The notes below the pieces were generated by a model. That model made no database searches. It had not been told where the DNA came from and saw only the letters and a program-made list of their open reading frames with translations. From Chloranthus sessilifolius (lineage: Eukaryota; Streptophyta; Magnoliopsida; Chloranthales; Chloranthaceae), in NCBI GenBank assembly GCA_021018995.1, contig CM037593.1:34113810-34177809 (forward strand): 64,000 bases of DNA, in the 5' to 3' direction. This document shows, in pieces, positions 6,280 through 59,639 of this stretch (positions are counted from its first letter, which is position 1; the number at the start of each line of letters is the position of its first letter). The position numbers and the translations under genes are program-made.

Positions 6280-7490
6280 GTATGATCTCATATCAGTAAT
6301 TTATTGTCTGATATCAGTCTTTTATTGTTTACACACTGTCACTTTATAGTTCTCCACCTTTACCCATGCAGATCACAATGTAGTTAATGTTAAATATTAG
6401 TTTAATAGCAGACATGTACTGTCTCATAACAGTACTTTATTGTCTGATATCAGTCCTTTAATATTCTCACATCAGTCTTTTATACATTCAGATTACTCAT
6501 GCAGGACAGAACATAGTTCAATACTGAAATGAGTATGATATTAGTCCTGTCCTGTCTCACCACAGGATTTTATTATTTGATAATAGACCTCTAATGTTCT
6601 CACATCAGTCCTTTAATGGTTCAGATAACTTTACTCCTGTAGGTCAGAATATTATTTCAAGTGATGTACATGTCTGATATCAGTCTTGTACTGTCTCACA
6701 TCATTATATTATTGTCTGATACCAGTCCTTTAATATTCTCACATCAATACTTTACAGATTCAGATTACTCATACAGGTCAAAATGTAGTTTACTGCTAAA
6801 AATGAGTCTGACATCAGTCCTATCTTGTTTCACATCATTACATTATTGTCTAATATCAGTCCTGTGAGAATATACTTTGAAGCTAAATATGAGTCTGATA
6901 TCAGTCCTTTACTGTCTCACAACAGTTTTATATTGTCTAATATTAGTCCTCTAATGGTCTGATATCAGAAATATTAAATGACTGATATCAGTCCTCTAAT
7001 GGTCTGATATTAGAAGCATTAAATGACTGATATCAGTCATCTAATGGTTTGATATCAGAAACATTAAATGGCTGATGTCAAACCATTAGAGGACTGATAT
7101 CAGTCACTTAGTTAATCAGATAACTTTACTTATGCCTGTGACATTCTAGCTTAAAGGTAAATATGAGTCTAATATCAGTCTTGTATGGTCTCATATGTGT
7201 ACTTTATAGAGTTCAAAATAAGTGCTTTAATGTTTCAGATAAAATTAGTCATGCCTGTGATAATATAGTTTGAAGCTAAATATGAGTCTGATATCAGTAT
7301 TTTATTAAATGTCTGATATCAGTATTTTATTAAATGTCTGATATCAGTATTTTATTAAATGTCTGATATCAGTCCTCTAATGGTCTGATAAATGTCTGAT
7401 ATTAGACCATTAGATGACTGATATCAGTCATTTACTGTCTCACATAATTACTTTATTCTCTGATTTCAGTCCTCTAATGTTCTTACATCA
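6280..7490. repeat. CTGATATCAG palindrome array 1
   Basis: Dozens of copies of GTCTGATATCAGTCCTTTAATG and variants lie here. The core CTGATATCAG is a perfect 10-bp palindrome, and linkers such as CCTTTAATG or ATTTTATTAAATG separate cores. Sparse copies begin near 5690. Blocks occur in both orientations, for example 6960-7110. The array lies between the transposase relic and ULP-a. Confidence 0.9.
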
Positions 7491-8435
7491 GTCAATTAAG
7501 CTATTATAATGTCTTATATTGATCTTATATTAGTTCTATAACATCTTTCAATCATCCTATTTCAGATATTAAAAGTTGAAAAAAAAATGGCAAAATGGCT
7601 GAAGCAAGAAAAGTGGAAATTTGATGGGGATAACCGATAAGCGATCAAAGGAGCAATGAACTATCGCAAGTTAGGCCGATGGTACGGTCATTTAAGCAGT
7701 GACAAGAAAGAGCTCCTCCTCCAATAAAGTTATTTAAAATTTTTATGGTTGATTAGCGAATTCATCACCCAATCCAGATAGCTTGTACATGCCATTATTA
7801 GAGGCTTCGATTCGGAGCACTAGACATTCTCCATTGGAGAGTATGTTGTTCCGTTAGTCCGAATAGACATGAGGAAGATTTTGGGCTTGAAAGTTAGCTC
7901 CCCTTCAATATAGGCAGAACCTTCAGTGCCAATAGATCCTGAAGGTGCAGCCACTTTTAGGGAGCGATTATTTGGGCAAATGGCAGCCGGGCAGTCAGTC
8001 ACCAGAGATCAGATCGAATCAGCCCTCGATGCACCTACCCTAGCCGATGTTGACTTCATCCGACTTGCGAACTTGTACATGTTATCCTTCCTGACATTCG
8101 CCATACGATCGATGAGGAATACATCGCTCTCGCGAATGATCTTCGCATGTTCAATGGCCACAATTGGGGGGATGTGGTTTATGCTTTACTTGATCGATTC
8201 CATATATGCAGCCATGTGTTCTCTAGGTGGTATTGTGTGCTAAGTTGCACTATTCTATTACATGTATGGGCATTCGAACACGTTCCTCAAATTTCACCGG
8301 GTAAAGTGAAGAATGCATGTAAAGAGTGGCCGCTGCTCTTGAAATATATGCCACTGAAGATTTCGTGCGCCGATGCGAACTTCTAGTTTCAAAAGTTTTA
8401 AAAGTTCAAGGTACTATTCTATCAGATATTTAATT

Positions 8436-9155
8436 TTGTGCTTATATCAGACCATTAGAGGACTGATATTAGACATTTAATAAAGTACTCATATCAGACT
8501 ATTATAGACCTAATATCAAACCATTAGAGGACTGATATCAACCATTAGATGACTGATATTAGATATTTAATAAAGTACTGATATCAAACTATTAGAGGAC
8601 TAATATCAGACATATAATAAAGTACTCATATCAGACCATTAGAGGACTGATATCAGACATTTAATAAAGTGCTCATATCAGACCATTACAGACCATTAGA
8701 GGACTGATATCAAATATTTAATAAAGTACTAATATCAGATCATTAGAGGACTGATATCAGACATATAATAAAGTGCTCATATCAGATCATTAGAGGACTA
8801 ATATTAGACTATTAGAGGACTGATATCAGACATTTAATAAAATACTGATATCAGACCATTAGAGGACTGATATCAGATAATAAAGATCTGTTGTGAGACC
8901 TGATATTAGAGATTTAATGTAGTACTGATATCTGACCATTAGAGGACTGATATCAGTCCTCTAATGGTCTGATATCAGTCATTTACTGGACTAATATAAG
9001 ATATTTAGTCTAATATACTGATAAAAGACCATTAAAGGACTGATATCAGACAATAAAGATCTGTTATGAGACCTGATATCAGAGATTTCATGTAGTACTG
9101 ATATCTAATCATTAGAGGACTGATATCAGATATTTAGTAAAGTACTGATATATAT
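8436..9155. repeat. CTGATATCAG palindrome array 2
   Basis: Units of the form GACCATTAGAGGACTGATATCA and GACATTTAATAAAGTACTGATA alternate. The palindrome CTGATATCAG is the core again, with spacings of about 22 and 25 bp. It is mostly in the opposite sense to array 1, with a switch near 8950. It lies inside ULP-a between the N-terminal domain and the acidic region, probably in an intron. Confidence 0.9.
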
Positions 9156-9589
9156 TTATCTATTACTGTACGTTATCGTTGGAGATCTTGAGCCACCTAA
9201 GGGACCTGGACTTCATAAACTGAGCAACCCAAAAAAGGAACTAAGGAAAAGAGAAATAGAAGAAGAAGGAGATGATGAGTGTATAGATGGAGAAGGCAAT
9301 GAGGAAGAGGAAGAAGATGATGACATCGATGTCAATGAGTATAGTGTACGGCCGAGATTGGCAGCTGTTGGCACTGGTTTTCGAGCTTCTGAGGGAGAAA
9401 AAAGACTTCTTGCTAGAATTGAAGTATTAGAAGTCGAGGCGAGGTCGATTCGTCCCCTTCTCGCGGTAGTTGAGAGGCAAGGTCACTCGATCAAAGTCCT
9501 TAGACAACAAAATTTGTTATTATTGGGACATGTTAAGACACTTGAGCCGGTATTAGAAATATATCAGAGCTCCGAGAATGGAGAGGACT

Positions 9590-11869: not shown

Positions 11870-14240
11870 ACACGTAGGCTCCAAATGTGATGGACAATTA
11901 CATCAGTCAAGTTAAACACTGATAATAGTGACTTGGATAATAGTTTTTGCATGGTTGAGCCTCATATGAGCCATTTACTGTCTCCTGTGAGTCCAAGTAT
12001 GACTCATGTGAGACCTTTATGCTTTAAATGTGATAGACAATCACATCATTCATATATAAACACTGATTGTAGGCTTCAAGTCATTCAAGTAAGTCTCATG
12101 TTAGACCTGTAGGCTTCAAATCTGATTGTCAATGACATCAGTCATGTTAAACACTGCGAGCTTTGAAGTACCGACTTATGATTTTCCCTAACTTGGTCAC
12201 ATATGAGTCATTTACTGACTCATATAAGTCTAAATAAGTCTCATGTTAGACATGCAGGCTTCAAATCTGATAGTCAATGTCATCAGTCAAATTATAGTAT
12301 GATAACAGTGATAGACTAATAGAGATTTGACATGGCTAGGTCAGATATGAGTCACTTACTGACTCTTATAAGTCCAAGTAAGTCTCATGTTAGATATGTA
12401 GGCTCCAAATGTGATAGAGAATCACATCAATCAAGTCAAATGTGATATACAATCACATCATTCATGTATAAATACTGATTGTAGGCTTCAAATTATTCAA
12501 GTAAGTCTCATGTTAGACCTGTAGGCTTCAAATATGATTGTCAATGACATCAGTCATGTTAAACAATGAGAGTTTTGATGTACCGACTTATGATTTTGCC
12601 TGACTTGGTCACATATGAGTCATTTACTAACTCATATAAGTCCAAGTAAGTCTCATGTTAGACATGTAGGCTGTAAATCTGATAGTCAATATCATCAGTC
12701 AAGTTATAGTATGATAATGGTGACATACCAATGGGGATTTGGCATGGCTAGGTCAGATATGAGTCATTTACTGACTCTCATAAGTCTCACGTCAGACACG
12801 TAGGCTCCAAATGTGATGGACAATCACATCAGTCAAGTTAAACACTGATAATAGTGACTTGGATAATAGTTTTTGCATGATTGGGCCTCATACAAATCAT
12901 TTACTATCTCTTGGGAGTCCAAGTATGACTCATGTGAGAACTGCATGCTCCAAATGTGATAGACAATCACATCATTCATGTATAAACACTGATAATAGTG
13001 ACTTGGATAATAGTTTTTGCATGACTGGGCCTCATACGAGTCATTTACTGTCTCCTGTGAGTCCAAGTATGACTCATGTGAGACCTGTATGCTCCAAATG
13101 TAATAGACAATCACATCATTCATGTATAAACACTGATTGTAGGCTTCAAATCATTCAAGTAAGTCTCATGTTAGACCTGTAAGCTTCAAATTTGATTGTC
13201 AATAACATTAGTCATGTTAAACACTGCGAGCTTTGATGTACCGGCTTATGATTTTGCCTAACTTGATCACATATGAGTCATTTACTGACTCATATAAGTG
13301 CAAGTAAGTCTCATGTTAGACACGTAGGCTCCAAATCTGATAGTCAATGTTATCAGTCAAGTTATAGTATGATAACGGTGATGTACCAATGGAGATTTGA
13401 CATGGCTAAGTCAGATATGAGTCATTTACTGACTCTTATAAGTTTAGGTTAGACTAACATGGGACATATAGGATCCAAATATGATAGTCAATGATAATAG
13501 TCATATTGAATACTGCGAGCATTGAAGTACAATAGAGATTTGACATGACTGGGTCGCATATAAGTCATTTACTGACTCTTATAAATCTAAGTTAGATGTG
13601 AGACCTGTAATCCAAATATGATAGACAATGAGATCACTCAAGTTAGTCGTCTATCAGTGATGTACAAATGGGGATTTGGCATTACTGGGTCACATATGAG
13701 TAATTTATTGACTTGTATTAGTCCAAGAGCGACTCATGTGAGACATGTAGGCTCCCAAAACAATGAGTCAATCACATCAGTAGTTATAGTTTGATAGCAG
13801 TAATGTACCAATAACCATTTTTCATGAGTGAGTCTGGTATGAGTCATTTATTGACTCTTATAAGACCAAGTTAGACTAATGTGAGACCTATAATCCAAAT
13901 ATGATAGACAATGAGATCAGTCATGATATAGTTCGATAATAGTGGCGTACCAATAGTCATTTTCCATGACTAGGTAAGCAAATGAGTTATTTACCGACTC
14001 ATATAAGTAGTAGAGAGACTCGTGTGAGACTTGTAGGCTCCAAATTTGATAGTCAATGACATCAGTCATGATATATAGTCTGATAATAGCGACGTACCAA
14101 TAGTCATATTATAGTATGATAATAGTGACGTACCAATGACGTACCAATAAGTAATTTACCTGTGCTGGGTCTCATATGAGTCTTTAACAAACTCTTTAAG
14201 TCCCACAAAGACTCATGTCAGTCCAGTAGGCCTTTGAGGA
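11870..14240. repeat. Long tandem array, units of about 110-150 bp
   Basis: Recurrent phrases are AAGTCTCATGTTAGAC, GTAGGCTCCAAATGTGATAG, ACAATCACATCAGTCAAGTT, TAGTATGATAACAGTGA and ATATGAGTCATTTACTGACTC, in the same order through about 2.4 kb. Copies differ by substitutions and by loss or gain of sub-blocks. At 12,830-13,150 two adjacent units are nearly identical. The GTGATAGACAATCAC piece is itself an imperfect palindrome. No gene is supported; the short frames on both strands come from the repeats. Confidence 0.85.
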
Positions 14241-50968: not shown

Positions 50969-51349
50969 AAAAGGCCTCCGTCCTCCATGGGAGGACGGTC
51001 ACCGTCCTCCAAGCTTCCACGTGGAGCTCTACATGGCAGCCAACATATTGTTTCGATGCCACGTGGAGCTAGGGTGCAGTGCTTAGATCATCTTTGCAAA
51101 AAAAAAAATTTGAAAACTCATCTCCACCGTGTATTTTTTTAACCGTGAAATGTAGACCAATGAAACCCGTCAAATTTTGACTTGTGGGTTTAAAAAGTTT
51201 TTTTCATTTTTTATTTTTTTTAATATTGATCTATACCGTCCACTTGTGCTCCACGTGGCACCCAAACAGTGCTTTGGATGCCACGTGGAGCTCCATGCGT
51301 ATCTTGGAGGACGGTGACCGTCCTCCATTGGAGGACCTAACCGACTCCC
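50967..51349. mobile_element. Inverted-repeat MITE 3 inside a TA repeat
   Basis: The left end has GTCCTCCATGGGAGGACGGT and CACCGTCCTCCAAG; the right end, reversed, GTCCTCCAATGGAGGACGGT and CACCGTCCTCCAAG. Both continue with CCACGTGGAGC blocks. Flanking sequence is (TA)n on both sides, so a TA target (Stowaway/mariner type) is plausible but cannot be told from the microsatellite. Confidence 0.8.
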
Positions 51350-51373
51350 ATATATATATATATATATATATAT
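51350..51373. repeat. (TA)n microsatellite, right of MITE 3
   Basis: Continuation of the TA run after MITE 3. Confidence 0.9.
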
Positions 51374-51527
51374 GAAATTTTTTTCAAAATCGACCACAAT
51401 AGTTTCACTTTTCCTAGTAGTGGACTGCTAGTTTATCCTTTTCCATAACCGACCAGCTTGAAGCTGAGCTAGTACCCCTAATCGTAAAAGGTGAAAATAC
51501 CCCTAAGGTTTGTAAAAGGTGATAAAA

Positions 51528-51634
51528 GGGAAATTTGCACTTTCGGCCCTATATATTTGCGTATTTGCAGAAACGGCCCTATAGTTTCAATCCTTGCATA
51601 AATGGCCAGCTCCAAGCCTAGCCGCCTGCACGTC

Positions 51635-51636
<2 letters not shown>
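51528..51636 (+). repeat. MULE left terminal inverted repeat
   Basis: Pairs with 59265-59380 over about 110 bp with scattered mismatches. A (TA)n run follows directly (51637-51698). Confidence 0.9.

Positions 51637-51698
<62 letters not shown>
51637..51698. repeat. (TA)n microsatellite inside the MULE
   Basis: About 30 TA units next to the left TIR. Confidence 0.95.
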
Positions 51699-51700
<2 letters not shown>

Positions 51701-51894
51701 TTCTCTATGCAAGCATTGAATCTAGAATTTCTGTATCATTTTTTAACAATTTCTATCTCTTGGAAAGCGATTTCGAGATTCCACTACAGGTCGTATAACA
51801 TAGAGAATACAACAGGCTAGGTAAGATATCGAGTACAATATCTTTTTAAGTTATTGTTTTACCAATTTTTCAAAACATTGTAGGTAGTCCAAGA

Positions 51895-52075
51895 TATATA
51901 AGATATCGATCGATATCTTAAGTTATCGACCGATATCTTAAGTTATCGGTTGATAATTTAAAAGAGGGTTTTTTTTTTTAAGTTTTTGGATTATGGTTTA
52001 TGTTAAAAGTCCATCGGCTAGATATCTTAGGATATCGGCCCGATATCTTAGGATATCGAGCGATATCCTATGATT
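51895..52075. repeat. MULE palindrome cluster 1 (left)
   Basis: TATCGATCGATATCTTAAGT, TATCGACCGATATCTTAAGT and TATCGGTTGATAATTTAAAA follow at 20-bp steps. After a gap of about 65 bp three more (GGCCCGATATCTTAGGATAT type) follow. It lies between the left TIR and the transposase start. Confidence 0.9.
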
Positions 52076-52206
52076 GACAAAAACGCTAAAGTTTTTATTT
52101 CTTTCATTTTTTAATAATATTTTTAAATAATTGTAGCGCTAAGTCAAACATAACTCTTTATAAACAACCAATTTTAATTTTAATTTTATAAATATTGTAG
52201 GTTGAA

Positions 52207-54897
52207 ATGGATGTTCCCCTTCTTTGCCATTTTCATTTTGTATGCGTGAGAGATAATACTTACAACGGAGGACATCGGAGGATTGTCACTGTCACGGAGA
52301 ATATATCATTTGATGAGTTTATAGAGAAAATGTACAAAGTCAGTCGGACACGACCGGAAGAACATTCTATTACACTTACTGTTTCATTACGCATAGGGAA
52401 TGAGCTTGTATTTGTCGAATTGTCTGACTCTGATGATCTTACAAACTTTTTTAGAGCATATCGTATCGGTGATGGTGTGATAAATATTTATATCGAAAAA
52501 TCATTAGTCACTACTGTAGCAGAAATTTTGCCGTCTTTAGAAACATTTCAACCGTTCAAGGAAACAAACGAAGATGATCGTGGTGTGGGAACAGAACATT
52601 TGATTGAAAATCAAGGAATACGGTATGAAGAGGAGAACATTGTTGCACCGATAATAGCCGACGATGATAGAAATATGAATATAGGATTTTGCCCCTACAG
52701 TAAACTTCTAGAGCAACCCTCTTCAGACATTTCGATGAGTGAAGGCGATAAAGATCAAGGATATTGTCATCAAATGAATCCGATGCATGATACATCTCAG
52801 TTCAACTTCGATTCGGTAAATCAGTGGGAAACGTTTTTAGTCGGCCTTAGTCCATATCAATGGCCTTCCTAACAAATAGCTTCGGAGCCAACGATAATCG
52901 AGCCTTCAACAGAACTGCCTCTCATACATCAAACATTCTCGCATCGGCTAACATCAATCCAAACAACTGCACATCAACCAAGCGTACATCGACGGGCTCA
53001 ATCCCAATCACGTAATAACCATCCAGTCGATGACGGTGATAGTGATCCTGAAAATAATGAAGCTCCGCCGTCTCCCACTTCGCGTGTTTATATTAATAGG
53101 GGAATTGATCAACCTCTGGTGGACGAAGACTATCAGCTTAATGACTCGGAAGGAGAGTATGTGGATTCAGACGATGAGGAACTGTATGAAGGGGGAACGA
53201 TTACCATTGGTTAGACGTTTAGAAATAAGAAATCATTTCAAAAAGTTCTTAAAAAATTTGCAATGACAAATAATTTTCAGATTAAACCAATAAAAACCAG
53301 TCCTCTTCGAGTTACTGCGAGGTGTGTTGAAGTAGAATGTGCTTGGCGAATACATGCATCGAAATTAGTAGGCGTAGACACGTTTGCTGTGAAAACTTTC
53401 CACCCAGAACACACGTGTGGAATGCCAGCTTTTGGAAGCGGACATCGCCAATGTACGACATCGTGGATAGCTTCATTCGTTAGAGATAATCTATTAAAGG
53501 GTTTTGACGAGACTCCTGCTTCAATAATTTTTTATATTGAAAAAAAATACGGTATAACAGTAGGTTACTGGAAAGCATGGAGAGGAAAAGAAATGGCGTT
53601 GAACGACATCCGAGGTAGCTGGAAAGAGCAATTTAAGATGTTACCGTCATATGTTGTCGAATTACAGTGGGTCGATCTAGACATACAGACCGAATTGTGT
53701 CTCGAGCCTGATAATGCATTTCAGAGATTCTTCGTGGCATTCGGACCTTGCATTCGAAGCTTTCGTAATACTTTACGAAGAATAATTGCGGTAGATGGAA
53801 CGCATTTGCATGGACGATACAAGGGAGTGTTGTTAATAGTTATGGGGATAGACGAGAATAGACATTTATTTCCTATAGCGTTCGACGTTGTACCAAAAGA
53901 AAATGAAGACCATTGGACATGGTTTCTTGATCTATTAGGGAGACGTGTAATACGTGAATTTGAAGAACAGTTTATTTTGATATCAGACAGACATAAAGGT
54001 TTGATGGAAGCAGTGGAAATTTTTTTTCCTAACGCCTTTCACAGCTACTGTATGCGACACCTGGCTCTAAATCTGTTTGATAAATATAAAGATACAATCT
54101 CTAGACCGCTTTTCTGGGTTGTTGCCCGTGCATTTTCAGAAGCAAAATTTAAAAGAATTATGCGAAAAATAGAAGACGACGCCCCGCCGGAATGTACAAA
54201 ATTGATTAAAGAAATTGGTGATCATTTCTGGGCACGCGCTTATTTCCAAGGGAGGCGTTATGATATGTTGACAACTAATATAGCTGAAAGCATAAATAGT
54301 GTATTGAAAATAGTCAGGGAGGAACCGATTGTGAGCATGTTAGAAACTATTCGCACAAAAGTAGCTGAATTTTATCTTCGTTGTCAGGAGGAAGGAAATA
54401 AAATGACACATGTGTTAACACCGATGGCAGAAAAACACATAACAAGAAATTCAGGATGGACCCATCGAAAAAACGTCATACCATATGGTCGTGATATATT
54501 TCAAGTTAAACGTGGTGATTACACTCATAGTGTCGATCTAGAATCGCGAACATGTACATATAGACGTTGGGCTATTCTTGGATTACCATGTTCACATGCG
54601 ATCGCCGCATTATCGCGCCGAAACAGAGAAAGAGAGATCCCCCAATTTTGTGAACACTGGGTTACCAGTGACTTATTTAGGGAAACTTATAAAGAACACT
54701 TTGTCCCGACCGTTGACAAACGCCAATGGACTTCGCAAATAAAAGACATTCAAGTTTTACCTCCCCACAAAATACGTCAAGCCGACCGTCCGAAGAAAAG
54801 GAGAATAAGATCTAAAGGCGAAGTTCGACCACTACAATGTAAAAATTGTAATAAGTACGGTCATAACCGTCGCTCGTGTAAATTTGTTAATATTTGA
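52207..54897 (+). pseudogene. MULE transposase, 897-codon frame with two stops
   Basis: One frame runs from ATG 52207 to TGA 54897, with in-frame TAA at 52870-52872 and TAG at 53212-53214; both could come from C-to-T change of CAA/CAG. The N-terminal ~110 residues (MDVPLLCHFHFVCVRDNTYN onward) are a compact domain I do not recognise. An acidic linker follows, then the MuDR-type DNA-binding segment (TFRNKKSFQKVLKKFAM), the DDE core with VDGTHLHG (first Asp, residue ~530), ISDRHKG (second Asp ~594), the Cys/His motif YCMRHL and TTNIAES (probable Glu). Next come a SWIM domain (CTYRRWAILGLPCSHA) and a zinc knuckle CKNCNKYGHNRRSC. It would bind TIRs and cut them in the nucleus. The catalytic part (53263-54897, 544 residues) is fully open. 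Upstream AG at 52198-52199 suggests a 5' leader intron. Confidence 0.95.
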
Positions 54898-55237
54898 AAT
54901 TAACTTATATTACTTCAAAGTTTGAGATTAGATTAGACCTAGTGGCGATCGAGCTTCCAAATGATCTCATTATAGAAGAGTATTTTGTTTTTCTCTTTTT
55001 CTTTCCTTCAACATTAACAGATTGTACCTCAATAAAAGAGTGATCAACATTCGTCAATTAATTAATATATTTTTTTGGACTAATAATTAAGTTTTGGAAT
55101 TGTTATTGAAATATATTGCTGTGCTTAATAAATCATTCATTCAAACAGGATTTGAAGTTGCCAAATCCGCCCATAATCTACTAGTGATTGGCATAGAGCC
55201 CTACCAAAGATATCTAGCTTCACAATTCCAAAAGGTA
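54898..55237. other. Transposase trailer
   Basis: AT-rich 3' untranslated sequence between the transposase stop and palindrome cluster 2. No gene. Confidence 0.6.
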
Positions 55238-55250
55238 GATATCTTAAATT

Positions 55251-55480
55251 ATCGGCCGATATTTTAAGTCATCGGCCGATATCTTAAATCATCGGCCGAT
55301 ATTTTAAGTAATCGGACGATATGTTAAATCATCGGCCGATAATTTAAATCATCGACCGATATCTTAAATCATCGGCCGATTACTTAAAATATCGGCCGAT
55401 TGTTTAAGGTATCGGCTGATGATTTAAGATATCGGACGATGATTTAAGATATCGACCGATGATTTAAGTCATCGGCCGAT
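55251..55480. repeat. MULE palindrome cluster 2: 12 copies, 20-bp period
   Basis: ATCGGCCGAT or one-base variants (ATCGACCGAT, ATCGGACGAT, ATCGGCTGAT) start at 55251, 55271, 55291 and so on to 55471, exactly 20 bp apart in all twelve cases. The 10-bp spacers are AT-rich (ATCTTAAATC, ATTTTAAGTC). It lies between the 3' ends of the two convergent genes. Confidence 0.98.
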
Positions 55481-56929
55481 TGGAATTGCTTCAAGAGAGG
55501 AAGGCTCTGTTGATAAATCAGGCAAAGTGAAATCTAAACATTAGATAAGTAATTGTTAGACAAATAAGATAAATTGATAACAACGAAAATGAAAATTATA
55601 CAAGTTAATAAAAATTAATAAAATTAATTATTTACAATTTCATCAAAAAACATCTCTACAAAAGTCTAAAAAATTTTACAGACATATTTAACTCTTCTTC
55701 CCAAACGTGCACATTAGATGTCCGATTTCGGCTCTAAATTGTTGCATATGTTTATCGTCAAAATCAATAGGCCGCTGTTGGGAGAAGTATTCTATATACT
55801 TCAAAACGTATGCACCGCAATCCCAACCGTTTTCTTGGATCGGGAGAACGACACTGTTGAACGCCGATACCTTTCACTGTTGATCGAAAGCTGACTTCAA
55901 ACCGACAGCGTAAAGAAGGCGCGGAAGGTGATTCAATAGACATTCTTTATGCGCTTCAAACCTTCTTGAGCACTCTCGGTCTGCTGGATCTATTAACTTA
56001 ATTTCTCGATCAACTAATGAAATTATAGCCAATGCCCAGTGGCTATGTTTTTGGCTATGCATCGAAAGATAAATCTACACATAAACGGAACTGAAATTTT
56101 AAATAATAAATTTTATTTAAAAGCCGTTAACGTTAAATAAAGCGAAGTTTAGTATTCAAAAACGTACCGTTCCACAGTCGATCGCGTGAATTCCACGGAT
56201 ATTATTTGTCAATAGTGGTTCCATCGGCTTTGAATTATTACGAACATTCCATTCGTCACAATAGGCCTGCCACCTATCGAGGTCGCTGAGCACAGCTATA
56301 CCTTCATTATCGATATATTTTTCAAATTTTTTCTCGTCTGTCATAAACAAGGTCTGAAACAGGATAATGTAGTAAGTAAATAAATTAGAAGAAGTTAATC
56401 AAGAGTCGTGATTGAAAAGACAAATAAAAGAAACAAACGAGCTTCCAATAAATATTTGAAACCTTACTGGCGGTAGCAGGTTAACCAAACTTTTTTCTAA
56501 GATTGGCCGTAAACAATGAATCGTTTATAACTTCAAGGACTCTCGAGTACGCGTCGATGACTTCATTGTCGAGCCACGAGCGTCCTTTGAGAACCTTCAA
56601 AAGAGCAACTGTGATGTCAATACCCCTGATAGTATTGACGATCACATTGTCCTCGTTCTCCGGTCGATTCCAAAAACTAAGTATATACTTTTGCTCCATT
56701 GATTTTGCCCCATCCTCCTCCACAACCAATCTTGGTTTTTTTATTATTGCTTTAGTGGTCGGAGACTTTCTCTTCTTACGAGCATGCAAGTCATAACCTT
56801 CGGCTTTATTTTTTGCAGATGATAGTTTCACTATAATTGTTTTTAGTGATGCCGGCTGTGACTCACAAGAAGGCTGCGTAAGAGGAGCACCATCATCACC
56901 CACATCAACCAAGGGTTATTTAGTAGGCT

Positions 56930-57200
56930 GAGGAGCAGTAGGTTTAGTGGCAGTAGATTTATGGGTAAGTTGAGGAGCGGCGGGTTTTGGGGCAGTTGAT
57001 TGTTGTCTTGGTTGAGGAGCAGTGGGTTTTGGGGCATTGGACTGATGGCTTGGTTGAGGAGCAGTTGGTTTTGTGGCACTGGACTGATGGCTTGGTTGAG
57101 GAGCAGTGGGTTTTGGGGCAGTAGACTGATGGCTTTGTTGATGAGTGGTGGGTTGAGGGACAGTTGATTGAGGATAAGTGGGGGAAGGAACGAAGGTGTC
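56930..57200 (-). repeat. Pro/Gln-rich repeat within the Ulp1-like gene
   Basis: Seven or so degenerate 30-33-bp units on the minus strand, coding KPTAPQPSHQSSA-like text. Low complexity; likely a flexible linker. Confidence 0.8.
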
Positions 57201-57283
57201 AAATAGCACAGAGGTTAAAATATTATCCTGCATAATTGTAAAAAAAAATACATTATAAAAAATAAAAAAATAAAAAATCGCAT

Positions 57284-57495
57284 TATCGACCGATAATTTA
57301 ACTAATCGATCGATAATTTACATTATCGACCGATAATGTAAATTATCGATTGATAATGTAAATTATCGATCGATTAATTAAATTATCGTCCGATAATGTA
57401 ACTTATCGGTCGATAATTTAAATTATCGTCCGCTAATGTACATTATCGATCGACTATTTAAATTATCGTCCGATAAGTTACATCGTCGGACGACA
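57284..57495. repeat. MULE palindrome cluster 3: about 11 copies, 20-bp period
   Basis: Units such as TATCGACCGATAATTTAACT, TATCGATTGATAATGTAAAT and TATCGTCCGATAATGTAACT follow at 20-bp steps. It lies in a probable intron of the Ulp1-like gene, the same place as array 2 in ULP-a. Confidence 0.95.
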
Positions 57496-58971
57496 AGCTA
57501 ATTTTGCATTAATTTGTAAAGAATTGATTTTGTTCTAAATTTGAAAAGTCTTGGTTTGGTACCTTTCTTAAATGAGAGATGACCGCATCAAGATCCTTCC
57601 GTATTGCTTTATTTTCTTCTTCTAAGGCCTTCTTATCTCTCCCGAGTTGTTCAATGGTGAGTGCTTGCCCTTTGAACAGCGTAAATGCACGCCGGAATTT
57701 TTTTTTATGTCTTTTATAGTCATGCGGAGCGTCTTGCATTCTTTTCTAAGCTCCGTTACTTCTTTGGTTAGGTGCGGTTGCCTAACTATCTGCTCTCTTG
57801 TTGGCTAGGGCCTAATATCCGGTTTGCCCTTTGGTTGACGTACAACGACCTCAAAATCATCGTTTTCGTCGCTATAATCTTCGTCATCCTCATTGTCGTC
57901 ATCTCGGCTAATCGGCTCTTCGGCTTTTTCTTTCGGACGTGTCGCATGACTTGGGATATCATCATATTCATCTATATTTTCTTCGGAGTAAGGCTCTTCT
58001 CTTTCCTCGGTCTCTTCCTTCTTATTTTCCATTTCTCTTAGAATAAAAAAATATCGAACCCATTTATACTATAATTTGTGCTTTTCAACTTCAAGCTCTA
58101 AAATCACTTTAGACTTAAGAAAATTTTCTCGATATAAATTAGGATTATGGCTGAATTTCGGGCCTTCCCATTTCATTAGCCTTGGAAATGGTTCTTTAAG
58201 CCCAATAGGAGCGGTGGCGACTGCAAGAAAGTGTTCAAATGCCCAAATCTGTAAGGCGATAGTGCATCCGTAGATGTTGTATTGCCCCTTTTTTGACCTT
58301 TTCGCCATTTCCCTTCTGCCACTCGCTTTTGATATACTATCTAATAAATTATTGTAAACTATCAGGCCCCACTTAACTCTTCAATGTTATCTACTAATTC
58401 TAAGTACCGTGTATCTACTTCCTGGTATGTGTCCGGAAGTAAAAAAGAACATACGAAAAATAATAATGATAGTTTCAAAAAATCATCGTTGGATAAATCA
58501 GCACTGTCAATAATTTCTTCAATACGAGATCTTTTCGCCAGCTTTCCCCGAAAGAATTTGTATCGAATAGTTGTTTCCTCTTTTACGGCCACCTTCTCAG
58601 ACTCAGGTTCCGTCAACATGTTGAGGCCTAAAATCAAGGCTATATCAATCTCTTGCAGGAGTACATTGGTGTTCTTGACCTTGAAAACATTATCTTCAAC
58701 CCAAAAACTTAAAATAGCGTCAACCAAGTCTCCAACGAATCCTAATCTCATTCATCCTAAATAGATGACCGAATATTGAATCATCTAATATTTTCTTTCT
58801 CTCTTCGTTACAGTGCATGTAAAATTTCTTAACACTAACTCCAGAACATTTTTCGATGGGCTTTAGAGTCATGATCATTTTTAATCACTTAGTAGGAACT
58901 GCAATATAAATAAAAAGCAATTAATAAACAAAAGAAGTGATTTTGAAAAAACTACTAATCCTCTAACTTAC

Positions 58972-59018
58972 CGATAATTTAAGTTATCGATCGATAACTT
59001 AAATTATCGGTAAGTTAT
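58972..59018. repeat. MULE palindrome cluster 4 (right)
   Basis: ACCGATAATTTAAGT, TATCGATCGATAACTTAAAT and TATCGGTAAG, three units at 20-bp steps, between the Ulp1 start and the right TIR. Confidence 0.85.
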
Positions 59019-59264
59019 CAGATTAGGTGGGAAACATTGGGGACTAAATGTGCTGAAATGTAGAAAAAATAAATTACCTGGAAATGTAATGTGACTTTTG
59101 TGACCTTTTTCCGCTTTGTCGCCGCTAAGTCGCCGCTATCTTGTTTTTTTCAGAAAAGTTAAACTTAAAACGTAACAGTAACAAATGAAAAGTAAAAGTA
59201 GCTTTTATACTCTCTTTTAAAGGACGGTGGAAAATTTTTTATATTATTTAAAATAGGTCCTTGT

Positions 59265-59380
59265 TGACGTGGAGCAAAGTGGAGCGGCTAGGCTTGAGGC
59301 GGTCATTAATGCAACGGATGAAACTATAGGGCCGTTTCTGCAAATATGCAAACATATAGGGCCGAAAGTGCAAATTTCCC
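59265..59380 (-). repeat. MULE right terminal inverted repeat
   Basis: Reverse complement of the left TIR. It contains GGGCCGTTTCTGCAAATATG and ends TTTCCC before TAAAA. Confidence 0.9.
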
Positions 59381-59639
59381 TAAAATCAAGCTTATTATCT
59401 TAGGCAGTTCTAAACCCCTTAACATTATCGTCTGCTTTGAAAATGAAGAAAAAATCACATCACTTGCATCAAAATAACCACGACTGTAGGCCATTGTAAA
59501 AAAATTAACTGATACAACAGCCCAAATATGAGGTTTATGAAATACAATGGCCCACTTAAATGTGCATTTTACATATACGTGAGTTCGAACCTATGACCTT
59601 AATTTCTAATTGATATAAGGCACCCAAATTCCTATTTCT

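Follow-up and report, generated by a model that had tools for sequence, protein, structure and literature searches.

The window, the whole stretch of 64,000 nucleotides of the Chloranthus sessilifolius genome (2.17 Gb) that we analysed, contains a MULE with four arrays of one palindromic motif in its non-coding parts, here called arrays A to D (Table 1). The features of a MULE are present: a MURA/MULE transposase, TIR arms of 93 nt that are 87% alike (51520-51612 and 59296-59388, inverted-repeat search) and, in 11 of 20 copies, perfect 9-bp target-site duplications (TSDs) adjoining the GGGAAATTTG...CAAATTTCCC-type termini by which the element ends were set. The subterminal repeats of CACTA (En/Spm) elements are also short repeated sites for a transposon protein, bound by TNPA, but this identity was rejected because the termini with their TIRs, the 9-bp TSDs and the transposase domains are those of a MULE. 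The start of the transposase (window 52250-52520) has a candidate PB1-like domain that scores 23.5 bits (5.5e-5) where the cut-off is 23.6, and 0.0081 in copy L025. A second gene runs on the opposite strand and converges with the transposase gene. In the window piece of its first exon, DUF1985 (5e-5) and PMD (1.1e-4) each score under the Pfam cut-off, both exceed it in copies L022 and L028, and DUF1985 in L019 falls just under; this DUF1985/PMD part and the Ulp1 end probably belong to one transcript. The preliminary description had called this MULE the younger one, which is tenable in a relative sense only: the window copy has two in-frame stops in its transposase (52870-52872 and 53212-53214), a frame-shifted second gene, TIR arms diverged as above and no TSD where one was looked for at its ends. 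Just left of the MULE, at 50975-51350, lies a MITE-like stretch between TA repeats, with inverted arms (51022-51116 and 51201-51295) matching at 73%.

Table 1 Features of the two MULEs in the window (positions count from the first nucleotide of the window)
Feature	Position	Strand	Basis and remarks
Array-bearing MULE, ~7.9 kb	51528..59380	no strand	TIR inverted repeats and termini compared across copies
Array C	51905..52064	no strand	5' of transposase; 20-bp units, then 21-bp units with 11-bp core; at least 1 site in 16/16 copies having that part
MURA-type transposase	52207..54897	+	MULE 3.3e-19, Transposase_mut 6.2e-12, DBD_Tnp_Mut 5.7e-11, SWIM 6.8e-5
Array A	55251..55480	no strand	12 sites at 20 bp, between 3' ends of convergent genes; 8-19 sites in 20/20 array-chosen copies
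Second gene, Ulp1 peptidase end	55688..56074	-	Peptidase_C48 1.1e-10 (55688-55873); 0.027, under cut-off (55874-56074)
42-bp tandem repeat, encoding tandem 14-residue peptide repeats in second gene	56929..57154	-	TRF, ORF
Inferred GT-AG intron of second gene	57236..57562	-	Splice signals in the sequence: donor in 21/21 elements, AG acceptor in 19/20 where located
Array B	57281..57494	no strand	Within that intron; 3-9 sites in 20/20 copies
Second gene, first exon	57563..58884	-	DUF1985/PMD, acidic stretch, coiled coil; frame-shifted in window copy
Array D	58966..59016	no strand	Limits approximate; 5' of second gene; TRF 58972-59009; at least 1 site in 18/20 copies
CTGATATCAG arrays of decayed MULE, between its genes	6286..7423	no strand	TRF, motif counts
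CTGATATCAG arrays of decayed MULE, after PMD-like exon	8420..9158	no strand	TRF, motif counts

A motif search of the window found the 12 sites of array A (55251, 55271 ... 55471) with each step exactly 20 bp. Seven of the 12 are exact ATCGGCCGAT, the other five have one mismatch, and 11 of the 12 fit ATCGNNCGAT. When up to two mismatches were allowed, the window held 38 motif matches for 11.2 expected, a number reached in none of 100 shuffles. The array had been described as twelve palindromes at exact 20-bp steps; the step is indeed exact for all 12, but not every site is a perfect palindrome, the central two bases being free. The repeat unit can be written ATCG-NN-CGAT-NNN-TTAA-NNN (TRF gives the span as 55238-55480 and the period as 20 or 40). 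The column profiles on either side of the core dyad mirror each other (correlation 0.954-0.989). The spacers of array A, themselves non-palindromic, are found in two orientations, with TTAA set in GAT-TTAA-GAT or in its complement. All sites had further been placed on nearly the same side of the helix, a view that is not supported: relaxed DNA needs more than 20 bp for two turns and, at 10.5 bp per turn, a 20-bp step shifts the face by -34 degrees per unit, so that neighbours look nearly alike while the whole array winds round the helix (-377 degrees over 11 steps). A 21-bp step, at the same pitch, stays on one face. Beyond array A, the motif recurs in arrays B, C and D.

Copies elsewhere in the genome were compared in two sets. 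The first, chosen by the array, comprised 20 of 40 scored genome places, not counting the window copy, which was itself among the 40; because this set had been selected by the array itself, a second was chosen by the transposase, taking 20 of 77 non-self matches independently of the array. All 20 array-chosen places proved to be copies of the window MULE, with a mean coding identity of about 95%, four of them (L011, L015, L026 and L028) without a matching left part. Whether other members of the family carry the array could be answered positively from the transposase-chosen set, in which the intergenic array is present in all 13 sampled copies with at least 88% transposase identity. At 84-86% identity, three of three copies retain the 20-bp repetition, although their cores are fewer or hybrid, and at 80-82% the intergenic array is absent from four of four. 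The location of the sites is highly skewed: the 20 array-chosen copies have 574 in 49.4 kb outside exon stretches vs a single one in 102.8 kb inside, the exon mask being the window copy's own gene model. Adjoining one copy (L010:9384-9774), a stretch 73% like the MULE left end has its own ATCGNNCGAT sites.

Column conservation was measured on units cut by register, not by motif match, and with end units dropped. Across the 334 array A units of 21 elements, mean conservation was 0.980 in the eight half-site columns and 0.990 in TTAA, vs 0.772 in the central pair and 0.615 in the six outer spacer columns. Among elements with four or more interior units, half-sites were better conserved than the outer spacer in every one for array A (21 of 21), array D (8 of 8) and array C (2 of 2), and in 16 of 19 for array B; the same held in 12 of 12 transposase-chosen copies, the eight remaining ones of that set (L041-L048), with few or no sites, having been left out of these statistics. 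The register is also kept, with 495 of 516 spacings of up to 125 bp being multiples of 20. The preliminary statement that spacers vary while cores are kept is thus right for the outer spacer but too simple for the spacer as a whole, which is not mere filler given its TTAA, and the constraint on cores, clear in array A, is weaker in the intron. In array B, half-sites reach 0.936 vs 0.905 for the outer spacer in the per-element comparison; compared with array A, TTAA conservation falls to 0.823 in array B and 0.830 in array D, and that of the outer spacer rises to 0.907 and 0.851, respectively. The two-block unit of core plus TTAA is clearest in array A.

These figures bear on one possible explanation, an ordinary tandem repeat that has no function and simply gains and loses units. 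Several observations suit it: the unit number in array A ranges from 12 to 22 by span across 21 elements, intron length varies among copies by roughly 20-bp steps, and TRF fits units of 40 and 60 bp too. Yet neutral units would vary equally in all columns, whereas in array A 12 of the 20 columns stay at 0.96-1.00 and eight drop to 0.54-0.81, and one motif is common to four separate places, an argument that is weaker for array B. An ordinary repeat is therefore disfavoured and we regard it as very improbable, in line with the initial rejection of simple tandem drift, for which the evidence is clear in array A and weaker in array B. A CpG-retention signal was sought in the half-sites and not found. 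In array A, 633 of 668 half-site CpGs are intact, and of the 35 that have changed, 29 read TG or CA; for coding CpGs of the window copy, two-copy comparisons show retention in 85-91%, about as the array rate predicts, so half-site CpGs are no better conserved than coding ones.

Self-complementary arrays could also fold as RNA and feed small-RNA silencing, in which case they would be host targets or by-products of no use to the element. The RNA fold of array A is very stable (-143.9 kcal/mol vs -58.5, sd 4.8, for shuffled sequence; z -17.8), but any tandem palindrome array would fold likewise. Co-variation gives a mixed answer: columns 14:17 of array B do co-vary (0.715 vs 0.521, 0/500 shuffles), the one result leaning towards folding, while spacer pairing in array A lies below chance (0.178 vs 0.426) and the central pair lacks co-variation. 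We consider a hairpin source improbable.

The preliminary description knew of no MULE feature like this array, but one is on record: tandem VANC-binding motifs are reported by Hosaka et al. 2017 (PMC5735166) from non-coding regions of VANDAL MULEs. According to the same article, the targets of VANC21 in VANDAL21 are short tandem motifs located in introns, between genes and in the non-coding termini, VANC21 binding accompanies methylation loss, the motifs vary by family, and VANC proteins combine DUF1985 with variable tandem peptide repeats. The window MULE resembles VANDAL21 and VANDAL6 as portrayed there (PMC5735166) in being a MULE with a DUF1985 protein, in its tandem short motifs in intron, intergenic and terminal non-coding DNA, in the family specificity of these motifs, in a VANC evolving faster than the transposase and in tandem peptide repeats in the variable part. 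It differs in its core, dyad-symmetric and with TTAA in between, whereas the VANDAL21 motif YAGTATTAY is given as directional and arrayed in one orientation (PMC5735166). The Pfam scan, in which frame-shifted parts were represented by their open pieces, gave no DUF287 beside DUF1985, unlike in VANDAL21. Moreover, VANDAL TIRs are characterized as degenerate or absent in PMC10398659 and PMC6446971, unlike the 93-nt, 87% arms found here. In ending with an Ulp1 domain and in running opposite to the transposase, the VANC-like gene recalls KAONASHI-type (KIU) VANC genes, treated in a 2026 review (PMC13317346) which states that Ulp1-carrying VANCs act like other VANCs; the KI-MULEs, by contrast, appear there as non-TIR elements. 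Gene content and orientation are also like those of grapevine MULEs with ULP1-like regions (PMC2528002) and of MULEs with antisense PMD ORFs (PMC6446971), neither source describing a palindromic array in its available text.

Divergent copies show the motif in the course of change. Three sister copies (80-82% transposase identity) have no ATCGNNCGAT and carry instead TAGCGGNCCGCTA-type sites at 21 bp. All three have such sites 5' of the transposase, and L049 and L050 also have them 5' of the second gene and within its intron; in L051 a single sister-type site lies upstream of the second gene, and an array looked for in its intron stretch was not found. Conversely, TAGCGNNNCGCTA is absent from all 20 main copies. 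Copies at 84-85% carry cores such as AGCGGCCGAT, composed of one half-site of each kind. In the one pair of subfamilies compared, the VANC-like exon has 59-66% amino-acid identity vs 80-84% for the transposase, so that of the two proteins the VANC-like one evolves faster. Since dN/dS between subfamilies is 0.19 for the VANC-like exon and 0.10-0.14 for the transposase, both genes are under long-term purifying selection; within the subfamily dN/dS values are high and scatter widely (0.24-1.56), as decaying copies would be expected to show.

This turnover weighs on two further explanations. One is a transcription-factor platform, in which the palindromes would be bound by an activator of the element's genes, from the host or encoded by a transposon, with no anti-silencing role. 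Symmetric sites fit a dimeric factor, and arrays C and D do lie upstream of the two genes; the largest two arrays, however, are intergenic (3' of both genes) and intronic, and a host factor would not easily follow a motif that differs between sister subfamilies of one genome, so we hold this explanation to be unlikely. The other is that the arrays are bound by the MURA protein and serve transposition as accessory or subterminal sites; the position of arrays C and D about 300 bp inside the TIRs, one per side, might suggest this. Arrays A and B are nevertheless far inside the element, array D has no sites in 2 of 20 copies, and the motif has changed while the transposase is still 80-84% identical, all of which makes transposase sites quite improbable.

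The spacing can also be followed across the genome, where exact ATCGNNCGAT pairs number 157 at 19 bp, 13,320 at 20, 5,618 at 21 and 695 at 22, counts that include other repeats (ATCGNNCGATACGTATC types, other spacers and ATCGATCGATCG types). A matched control palindrome, TACGNNCGTA, is paired at 20 bp once genome-wide. Since many of the listed 21-bp ATCGNNCGAT pairs are separated by different, likewise symmetric spacers (AATTTSAAATT, ACATTSAATGT), the ATCGNNCGAT core is common to further repeat families. The fixed 20 bp is a trait of the family; a step of 20-21 bp may be a wider one. TCGATTAATCGA palindromes at 20-21 bp steps occur at 1447-1742 of the window, outside both MULEs.

The second MULE, at ~3.2-16 kb of the window, is decayed and, judged by eye, retains transposase, PMD-like and Ulp1-like pieces. 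It has palindromic arrays of its own, of CTGATATCAG, at steps of about 22-25 bp in its non-coding parts; forty genome places were scored for them. Of the 30 TGATATCA in the window, 27 are in 6.2-9.2 kb, 14 between the genes and 13 after the PMD-like exon, and none falls in the transposase or PMD-like exon of this element. Tandem arrays of ~143-bp units adjoin its genes at 11880-14137, and these arrays at 12-14 kb contain none of the TGATATCA sites. Beyond the two MULEs, 18 other DUF1985 loci (of 150 scored) had no strand-symmetric array within 1 kb upstream. At one DUF1985 locus (L067) there is a short 21-bp repeat with a GCACTAGTGC core, which did not pass the symmetry control (0.338).

We propose that the arrays are VANC-type binding platforms for the protein of the second gene, enabling resistance to silencing, a reading to which we give a probability of roughly two in three; their function in the manner of VANC targets is likely. 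The second protein, a putative VANC-type DUF1985/PMD protein with an Ulp1 tail, would bind the arrays, reading the ATCG half-sites as the two-fold symmetric ATCGNNCGAT unit, probably as a dimer, and with TTAA halfway from one core to the next. A row of many such bound molecules would strip silencing marks from the element's non-coding regions, with a presumed loss of methylation, and once these marks were gone the transposase and the VANC-like gene could be expressed. This DUF1985/PMD-Ulp1 protein is a likelier binder than the transposase, given that the two largest arrays lie in the interior of the element, one intergenic and one intronic. Several lines of evidence argue for VANC-type platforms: the near-exclusion of sites from exons (574 vs 1), their four non-coding places, the column constraint in these four, the DUF1985/PMD and Peptidase_C48 domains, the change of motif between subfamilies, VANC21 as the sole PDB match of two copies, the palindrome that the decayed MULE has of its own, and a layout like that of the published VANC targets. 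Others count against them, namely a symmetric motif where published VANC21 motifs are directional, the weakness of constraint in the intron, half-site CpGs no better kept than coding ones, the 18 DUF1985 loci without an upstream array, which indicate that the domain and strand-symmetric arrays do not always go together, and the weakness of the VANC21 match. In PDB sequence comparisons of three copies tested singly, VANC21 (9lnj) was the sole match, a weak one, for L028 (E 0.34) and L019 (E 0.098); for L050 neither VANC21 entry (9lnj, 9lnk) matched, and neither did by profile search. Matches of the profile search to poxvirus VP39 were rejected as compositional and spurious-looking.

More tentatively, the arrays might form a lattice, a possibility that we rate well below the platform reading itself. 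A symmetric VANC-type protein at ATCGNNCGAT, alternating every 10 bp with a TTAA contact, would coat the non-coding DNA in a two-turn register; symmetry and a register of 20 or 21 bp would be maintained by selection, with the half-site itself drifting from ATCGG to AGCGG along with the protein, by way of arrays mixing old and new half-sites. A 2022 EMBO J article by Sasaki et al. (e110070) is said to deal, by its title, with the fast co-evolution of antisilencing systems and their targets, and its abstract reportedly names motif sequence, density and helical periodicity. Because helical periodicity is thus reportedly named there as a determinant, the 20-bp register cannot be claimed as new. 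VANC-type tandem target motifs are already known, and the system found here is a variant of them, with a dyad-symmetric motif in a TIR-bearing MULE; the symmetric motif, the two-block unit and the hybrid intermediates may be new features.

The finding places a probable VANC-type target system with a symmetric motif in a many-copy, TIR-bearing MULE family of a 2.2-Gb plant genome. With sister motifs and hybrid arrays caught in mid-change, this family makes it possible to test how a transposon protein and its DNA word evolve together. If the mechanism operates as proposed, it would represent a further sequence-addressed route for the removal of DNA methylation in plants.
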